Shown here: positions 25,081 to 30,309 of the stretch, piece after piece
Position numbering within the stretch: position 1 is the stretch's first letter
How the letters are laid out: each line of letters starts with the position of its first letter
NCBI GenBank assembly: GCA_003232185.1
Contig: QIMC01000373.1
Span: forward strand, 1 to 36,969
From: Flammeovirgaceae bacterium
GTDB lineage: Bacteria; Bacteroidota; Bacteroidia; Cytophagales; Cyclobacteriaceae
DNA: 36,969 bases
Reading direction: 5' to 3'
Made by a program: the position numbers and the translations under genes
The notes under the pieces: model-generated
What the model was told of the DNA's origin: nothing
The model's database searches: none
The model's input: the letters and a program-made list of their open reading frames with translations, nothing else

Positions 25081-25491
25081 GTGATTGAATTTTTTAGTGA
25101 AGACATTGAATACGCTCCCCAAACGACCAATGAACTAGTAAATTGGATAACAACAGTTGTAGAAAACGAACGTCATATTGTTGGCGACATTAATTTTATC
25201 TATTGCTCCAACTCTTATCTGTTAAACATAAATCAAACCTACTTAGGCCGCCATACCTATACAGACATCATTACTTTTGATCAAAGCACTAGGACAAATG
25301 TTATTGCCGGTGATATTTATATAAGCATCGACCAGATAAGAAGCAATGCTAGCAAGTACCAGGAATCTTTCGATAAGGAACTTAAAAGAGTAATGGTCCA
25401 TGGGATATTGCATCTATTAGGGTATAATGACAAGTCTGTAGAAGAACAACAGGAAATGAGCAAAAAAGAAGAAGCTTACTTATCTTTGTAA
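25081..25491 (+). CDS. ybeY: Endoribonuclease YbeY (rRNA maturation)
   Basis: 'GDINFIYCSNSYLLNINQTYLGRHTYTDIITFD' and zinc motif 'HGILHLLGYND'. Confidence 0.96.
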   Translation: MIEFFSEDIEYAPQTTNELVNWITTVVENERHIVGDINFIYCSNSYLLNINQTYLGRHTYTDIITFDQSTRTNVIAGDIYISIDQIRSNASKYQESFDKELKRVMVHGILHLLGYNDKSVEEQQEMSKKEEAYLSL

Positions 25492-25497
25492 TTCTAA

Positions 25498-25513
25498 TAT
25501 TCCACGTGAAACA
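25498..25513. promoter_or_regulatory. parS-like site 1 (TATTCCACGTGAAACA)
   Basis: 15/16 to the bacterial parS form TGTTnCACGTGAAACA, in the ybeY-mnmG gap. Confidence 0.8.
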
Positions 25514-25528
25514 TTCCAAAGAATAAAG

Positions 25529-25544
25529 TGTTCCACGTGGAACA
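25529..25544. promoter_or_regulatory. parS-like site 2, perfect 16-bp palindrome TGTTCCACGTGGAACA
   Basis: Exact self-reverse-complementary 16-mer matching ParB-binding consensus; 15 bp after site 1. Confidence 0.88.
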
Positions 25545-25550
25545 TACTAA

Positions 25551-27422
25551 ATGAACGTTATGTTTCCCGAATACGATATTATAGTTGTAGGTGCCGGACA
25601 CGCCGGTTGTGAAGCTGCTGCTGCTGCTAGTCAAATGGGTTCAAAAGTATTATTGGTCACAATGAACATGAATACCATTGCTCAAATGTCATGTAATCCA
25701 GCCATGGGTGGAGTAGCAAAGGGACAAATCATACGAGAAATTGATGCTCTGGGAGGGCAATCAGGAATAGTAGCAGATCATTCAATGATTCAATTCAGAA
25801 TGTTGAATAAATCAAAAGGACCGGCAATGTGGAGTCCCAGAACTCAAAATGATCGTCAAATGTTTGCTCAAAAATGGAGACAAGTACTTGAAGAAATACC
25901 CAACATAGATTTCTGGCAAGAAATGATTACCGGAATCATCACTAAAGAAGATCGCATACTGGGTGTAAAAACGGGTATGGGTCTTGAAATTTTAGCAAAA
26001 TCAGTAATTCTAACCAATGGCACATTTCTAAATGGAGTTATCCACATCGGAGAAAAGCAATTTGGCGGTGGAAGAACCGGTGAAAAAGCCTCCACAGGTA
26101 TTACAGAGCAATTGCAGCAACTAGGATTTGAATCCGGTAGAATGAAAACCGGAACTCCACCAAGAATAGATGGCCGATCATTAAATTATTCATTAATGCA
26201 AAAACAACCTGGAGATAAAAATCCAGGTAAATTTTCTTATTTGGACAACCCCATAATTTCCGAACAAAGAAGCTGCTATATAACCTATACCAACCCTGAA
26301 GTACACAGACTATTAGAAACCGGATTTTCAAGATCCCCTATGTTTAATGGGCGAATAAAAGGTATTGGCCCTAGATACTGTCCATCAATAGAAGATAAAA
26401 TCAATAGATTTGCTGAAAGAAACCGCCACCAAATTTTTGTGGAACCAGAAGGATGGAATACCGTTGAAATTTATGTTAATGGATTCTCTACTTCATTACC
26501 TGAAGAAGTTCAGTATCAAGCTCTTAGGAAAATACCGGGATTCGAAAATGTAAAAATGTTCAGGCCTGGTTACGCAATTGAATACGACTTCTTCCCTCCT
26601 ACTCAACTAAAAACCACCTTGGAAACCAAACTTATCCACAATCTTTACTTTGCTGGCCAAATAAACGGTACAACTGGATATGAAGAAGCTGCTGCTCAAG
26701 GACTTATAGCTGGTATAAATGCTCATAGAAAACTTCAGCAAGAAGAACCATTAATACTAACACGATCACAAGCCTATATAGGTGTTCTTATTGATGATTT
26801 GATAAATAAAGGGACAGAAGAACCTTATCGTATGTTTACCTCAAGAGCAGAATTTCGAATCTTACTAAGACAAGACAATGCAGACCTACGTCTAACACCA
26901 ATAGGGTACAAACTTGGATTAGCTTCAGAATTGCGTTTAAATAATGTAACCAATAAAGAAAAAGCAGTAAATAAATTAATGCAGGACTTTAAGCAATATA
27001 AATTTCAACCAAATGAAATTAATCCAAAATTAGAAGTGCTACATACTTCACCCATTAAAGAAAAAACCTCTGTATATCAACTACTTAAAAGGCCTGAACT
27101 ATCTGTTAATCATTTAGTTAATATGAATAAAGGTTTATCCTTACCTTGGACTGGTTACTCTACGGAAACCACAGAGCAAGCAGAAATATTAATAAAATAT
27201 GAAACCTATATTGAAAAGGAGAAAAAACTAGCAGAAAAAATTCAAAGCCTGGAATCTTATAAAATCAAATCCTCCTTAGACTACCAGAAAATCTCTGCAC
27301 TGTCATCGGAATCCAGGGAAAAGCTTAGAAAAATTAAACCCTCAACTATTGGACAAGCCTCTAGAATTAGTGGGGTATCACCTGCCGACATTTCAGTCCT
27401 AATGGTATTTCTAGGAAAATAA
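25551..27422 (+). CDS. mnmG: tRNA uridine-5-carboxymethylaminomethyl modification enzyme MnmG (GidA)
   Basis: '[23 protein letters not shown]', '[24 protein letters not shown]', '[10 protein letters not shown]', '[25 protein letters not shown]', '[22 protein letters not shown]'. Confidence 0.98.
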
Positions 27423-29934: not shown

Positions 29935-30309
29935 GTTGTAATAATCACGTGGATAAACTGTGGCATATTCATTAATTTTTTGTGGATAACTAACAAACTT
30001 TTCAAAAATAAATTATCCTGCTTCCCCAACGTTGATAAAAAGAACTTTGTTATATGTTATCAACAAACTAATAAACCTAAAATTTTTGAAACAATCTTAT
30101 CAACAAATAAATAATAATTATAATCAATCTCTTAATTGTTTATTAATCAATCTCTTACATGTTCATAATATGTTAATACCTATTGAGTTTATCCATAATA
30201 AGTGCACAATAGAGAATTACAAGAATTATTTATGATTATTATCCACTGTTTCCACAACATAGTAATTAATAATAATTAATTTACTTAAAGGTATACTATT
30301 AAACAGCGT
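29935..30309. other. Candidate chromosomal replication origin (oriC): DnaA-box cluster plus AT-rich unwinding element
   Basis: DnaA-box-like 9-mers: 29948-29956 (CGTGGATAA), 29981-29989 (TGTGGATAA, perfect), 30030-30038 (CGTTGATAA), 30057-30065 and 30097-30105 (TTATCAACA), 30189-30197 (TTATCCATA), 30239-30247 (TTATCCACT), 30309-30317 (TATGGATAA). Very AT-rich core, no convincing CDS, G/C skew switch. Confidence 0.8.
30121..30157. repeat. 14-bp direct repeat TAATCAATCTCTTA (30121-30134 and 30144-30157) inside the candidate oriC
   Basis: Two exact copies with a 23-bp period in the AT-rich segment. Confidence 0.9.

Follow-up and report, generated by a model that had tools for sequence, protein, structure and literature searches.

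A predicted two-site parS centromere beside mnmG in a Flammeovirgaceae bacterium and its relatives

Two parS sites, one intergenic gap

The window, that is, the whole 36,969-nucleotide stretch of DNA analysed, carries ybeY and mnmG (gidA) in the same orientation, separated by a short gap. The ybeY stop codon occupies 25489-25491 and the first mnmG ATG lies at 25551, leaving 59 bp between the genes. MnmG may in truth start at the next ATG, 25560, as the proteins of relatives align from MFPEYD. Two 16-bp sites stand 15 bp apart in this gap. The features that matter here are as follows (distal and proximal are relative to mnmG):

25081..25491, + strand: ybeY, endoribonuclease YbeY (Pfam PF02130, 7e-27)
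25481..25488, + strand: candidate -7 promoter box TATCTTTG for mnmG, within the last ybeY codons (L-S-L)
25498..25513, no strand assigned: parS1 (distal), TATTCCACGTGAAACA, differing at one position from the family consensus TGTTYCACGTGRAACA
25529..25544, no strand assigned: parS2 (proximal), the perfect palindrome TGTTCCACGTGGAACA, sole exact copy in the assembly
25551..27422, + strand: mnmG/gidA (Pfam GIDA, 4e-167)
29935..30309, no strand assigned: candidate oriC, an AT-rich gap with DnaA-box-like 9-mers at 29981, 30057 and 30097

Both 16-mers are close to TGTTTCACGTGAAACA, the general bacterial parS consensus used in PMC10197239. When the window is scanned with up to three mismatches allowed, two matches are found against 0.13 expected by chance, and none of the shuffles yielded two. 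Applied to the full assembly, which is 87.7% complete and comprises 3.34 Mb in 488 contigs, the same scan returns nine places, and the CACGTG core is intact in parS1 and parS2 only; the other seven have a broken core and equal in number the control matches (seven). The uniqueness of the locus thus holds for the assembled ~88% of the genome.

The cognate proteins are encoded elsewhere. A parA-parB operon adjacent to yidC lies on contig C64 (L070 5364-7038), with no parS near it in the whole-assembly scan. ParB (326 aa) has ParB_N, HTH_ParB and ParB_C domains and a GERR motif, and its closest solved chains are Spo0J/ParB; the 256-aa ORF next to it is ParA, with the Walker motif KGGVGKTT and an AAA_31 match at 2e-68. 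The initial annotation had given the sequences, positions and spacing of the two sites exactly, had read them as parS and had remarked that parAB is missing from the window. That reading is borne out by the single core-intact locus and by the ParA-ParB pair, and the operon absent from the window is the one on C64. The genome-wide search that it proposed finds the parS sites gathered at one origin-linked locus.

The candidate origin, placed by the same annotation 4.4 kb from the sites, gains support from relatives. G033, G063, G044 and G047 all have DnaA-box clusters at the corresponding Big5-TPR junction, and in two large single-contig relatives parS lies near a sign change of the sampled GC skew. 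In G063 negative skew gives way to positive within 0.84-0.95 Mb, at a resolution of ~100 kb, with parS at 0.843 Mb; in G033 a broad switch at ~5.3-6.4 Mb, resolved to several hundred kb, spans parS at 5.79 Mb.

A stable address for parS and a mobile parAB operon

We took mnmG as the starting point for a family-level count covering the genomes with its upstream region at hand. All 59, our own included, have at least one parS within 300 bp upstream of mnmG, and 53 have at least two. The proximal site lies a median of 32 bp before mnmG, mostly 22-37 bp from its start, and the median spacing of the pair is 44 bp. No clear helical period emerges from the spacing of site pairs in these comparisons, which shows weak, non-specific clustering at 35-48 bp. 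Further out, a parS within 700 bp upstream of mnmG is present in 16 of 22 genomes from other families of the order, 27 of 30 from the class and 9 of 33 from other classes of the phylum. A separate sample took 59 genomes from the genus, family and order levels; 47 of them carry at least one site with no more than one mismatch, against two with a control match. With a single exception, the relatives' loci examined fall in the ybeY-mnmG gap or adjacent to mnmG; the odd one out, in G004, is a broken-core match in a genome where the mnmG start is unreadable.

The sites themselves hardly change. Across 116 aligned sites, appreciable variation is confined to positions 1, 5, 12 and 16, the rest being essentially invariant, whereas YbeY identity among relatives is just ~40-50%. 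Five genomes that look like exceptions (G043, G044, G047, G053 and G216) do encode ParB, and their sites near mnmG are slightly diverged. Both sites of G053 (L233), CGTTCCACGTGGAAAC and GTTTCCACGTGGAACA, have a changed outer arm, which may point to an altered preference of its ParB. The tightest spacing seen is that of G003 (L224), where the starts of the two sites are 14 bp apart, so that they overlap by 2 bp and stand almost head-to-tail.

Twelve genomes, most of those scanned from other classes that have no upstream site (G110, G138, G149, G156, G183, G191, G195, G090, G092, G114, G168 and G219), carry parS beyond the 3' end of mnmG, 1.9-2.4 kb from the start of the gene. In G041, where mnmG sits on a different contig, parS is 7.6 kb from the DnaA box belonging to the Big5-TPR block. 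In G050 and G148 mnmG has moved away, and parS adjoins ybeY or lies 7.5-10 kb from it, respectively. That parS stays behind near oriC or ybeY where mnmG has moved tells a centromere role apart from a role as mnmG operator.

The parAB operon shows no such constancy. We measured 21 relatives whose chromosome is assembled almost entirely as a single contig. In all 21, parB and mnmG are unlinked, at a distance of 0.08-0.47 of the chromosome (a few genome lengths being rounded) and a mean of 0.295, where random placement would give 0.25. The same figure gives the separation of parB from parS in those genomes that have parS next to mnmG. In our own genome, parAB and parS are on different contigs of a fragmented assembly. 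ScpB was found in 28 of 29 relatives, our genome included.

Sites and protein also disappear together. Two members of the order, G037 and G056, have neither ParB nor a parS beside mnmG, and a third, G051, has only a sub-threshold ParB match in a 646-aa frame and likewise no parS beside mnmG; two of the three are from one family, and the system appears to have been lost in them. G174 (L258, L279) encodes a good ParB, and a recognisable parS is missing from its whole genome.

The mnmG promoter and competing readings

A TAnnTTTG box ends 9 bp before parS1 in the window. In 27 of 59 family genomes, against 1.4 expected, such a box lies no more than 60 bp ahead of the distal site, mostly 15-33 bp from it and mostly inside ybeY. 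The codons beneath it are unusually fixed. At the L-S-L residues Ser is TCT in 20 of 21 cases and the last Leu is TTG in 20 of 21, whereas all six Leu codons are used at a control residue, the conserved Leu of the HLxGY motif; the full TTA-TCT-TTG occurs in 17 of 22 L-S-L stretches, with ~1% expected from codon usage. From this contrast it appears that DNA, and not the peptide alone, is conserved here. In promoters of the class to which such a box belongs, transcription starts several nucleotides past the box, so mnmG transcription would be expected to start at or just before parS1, and the mnmG promoter probably adjoins this site. The box in the window conforms to TAnnTTTG, the -7 element of sigma-ABfr (PMC7366714). 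Promoter boxes of this type, together with gene content, point to Bacteroidota as the source phylum. No TTTG is found near -33, nor is TTG enriched upstream of the box; in F. johnsoniae the -33 motif was likewise not identified (PMC7366714).

With the predicted start so placed, the initial annotation's side idea that ParB loading could affect mnmG transcription is plausible and gains indirect support. Precedents point both ways: ParB of P. aeruginosa represses genes adjoining the intergenic parS3 and parS4 (PMC7022226), in B. subtilis genes beside parS are unchanged on loss of Spo0J (PMC7022226), and no regulation by ParA or ParB was seen in E. coli at the gidA promoter of P. aeruginosa (PMC3909081). 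One could go further and suppose that much of the phylum has its centromere integrated into the promoter of mnmG, such that ParB at parS1 blocks initiation while transcription through the pair shapes ParB spreading towards oriC, ParB loading and mnmG transcription (and with it tRNA wobble modification) influencing each other. We regard this broader proposal as rather unlikely.

A stronger form of the idea would make the pair mainly a transcriptional operator, with ParB at the mnmG transcript start repressing the gene and thereby tying tRNA modification to the copy number or the segregation of origins. The recurrence of the box ahead of the distal parS in many genomes of the family, the codon conservation beneath it, the short distance from the proximal site to mnmG and the repression beside parS3/parS4 would all fit. 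The same layout is, however, not kept across the phylum: other classes carry the site 3' of mnmG, and G041, G050 and G148 retain parS in the origin region without mnmG. Regulation of mnmG is thus unlikely as the main function, and the B. subtilis and gidA results also speak against it; we consider an operator of this kind very improbable.

The palindromes could also be imagined to act as RNA, each being able to fold into a 6-bp stem capped by an ACGU loop just downstream of the promoter box, as an attenuator or stability element in the mnmG 5' UTR. We have rejected this reading and give it almost no weight: the would-be loop, ACGT, is invariant in 116 sites, which is a need of ParB and not of a hairpin, sites are also found outside any mnmG 5' UTR, and there is no Rfam match. 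Equally hard to credit is an operator for an unrelated transcription factor. CACGTG is indeed a common palindromic core, but the full 16-mer corresponds to the general bacterial parS consensus (PMC10197239) and is missing from genomes without a standard ParB, and this candidate was rejected as well.

A compact centromere and its known counterparts

The pair is, very probably, a compact two-site chromosomal centromere of a ParABS system, any effect on mnmG being a by-product. By analogy with characterised ParABS systems, ParB made from the distant parAB operon would bind each 16-bp palindrome and load as a CTP-dependent sliding clamp across the surrounding kilobases, ParA would pull freshly copied origin regions apart, and SMC-ScpAB would probably be recruited at the pair too. 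A ParB effect on mnmG would then possibly follow from parS1 abutting the promoter, without being its purpose. As predicted from sequence, the pair is an oriC-linked ParB loading site and not primarily an mnmG operator: a standard loading site with a strikingly stable address.

In the literature covered, to which the parS survey of Livny et al. 2007 did not belong, we found no prior description of the address beside mnmG, the separation from parAB or the promoter overlap. The address offers a sequence-only marker of centromere and origin in a large and less-studied phylum: look beside mnmG. A minimal one-locus centromere stays put while its own parAB genes wander, which argues that selection holds the position of parS and not that of parAB. 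The overlap with the apparent mnmG promoter makes an effect of ParB loading on an origin-proximal housekeeping gene directly testable.

The arrangement resembles P. aeruginosa parS3 and parS4, upstream of PA0011 and PA0013 (PMC7022226), in that an intergenic parS precedes an oriC-proximal gene; repression by ParB was measured there, whereas here it is suggested by layout. Another counterpart is known from two Bacteroidetes, Bacteroides caecimuris and Muribaculum intestinale, in which parS sites also cluster at the origin, as placed by GC skew (PMC10197239). The passages of that source covered here describe no mnmG position and report no condensin for these two species, whereas the relatives studied here have ScpB.

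The general design is that of the chromosomal systems Soj-Spo0J-parS of B. subtilis, ParAB-parS of C. crescentus and parS1-4 of P. aeruginosa: a 16-bp palindrome with sites near oriC, a ParB with N-terminal, HTH and dimerisation domains, an adjacent parA, and ScpB. In the classical model systems parAB is linked to the origin. Here, in contrast, the operon lies 0.08-0.47 of the chromosome away from mnmG and parS in the 21 relatives, and the centromere usually consists of just two sites in one intergenic gap.
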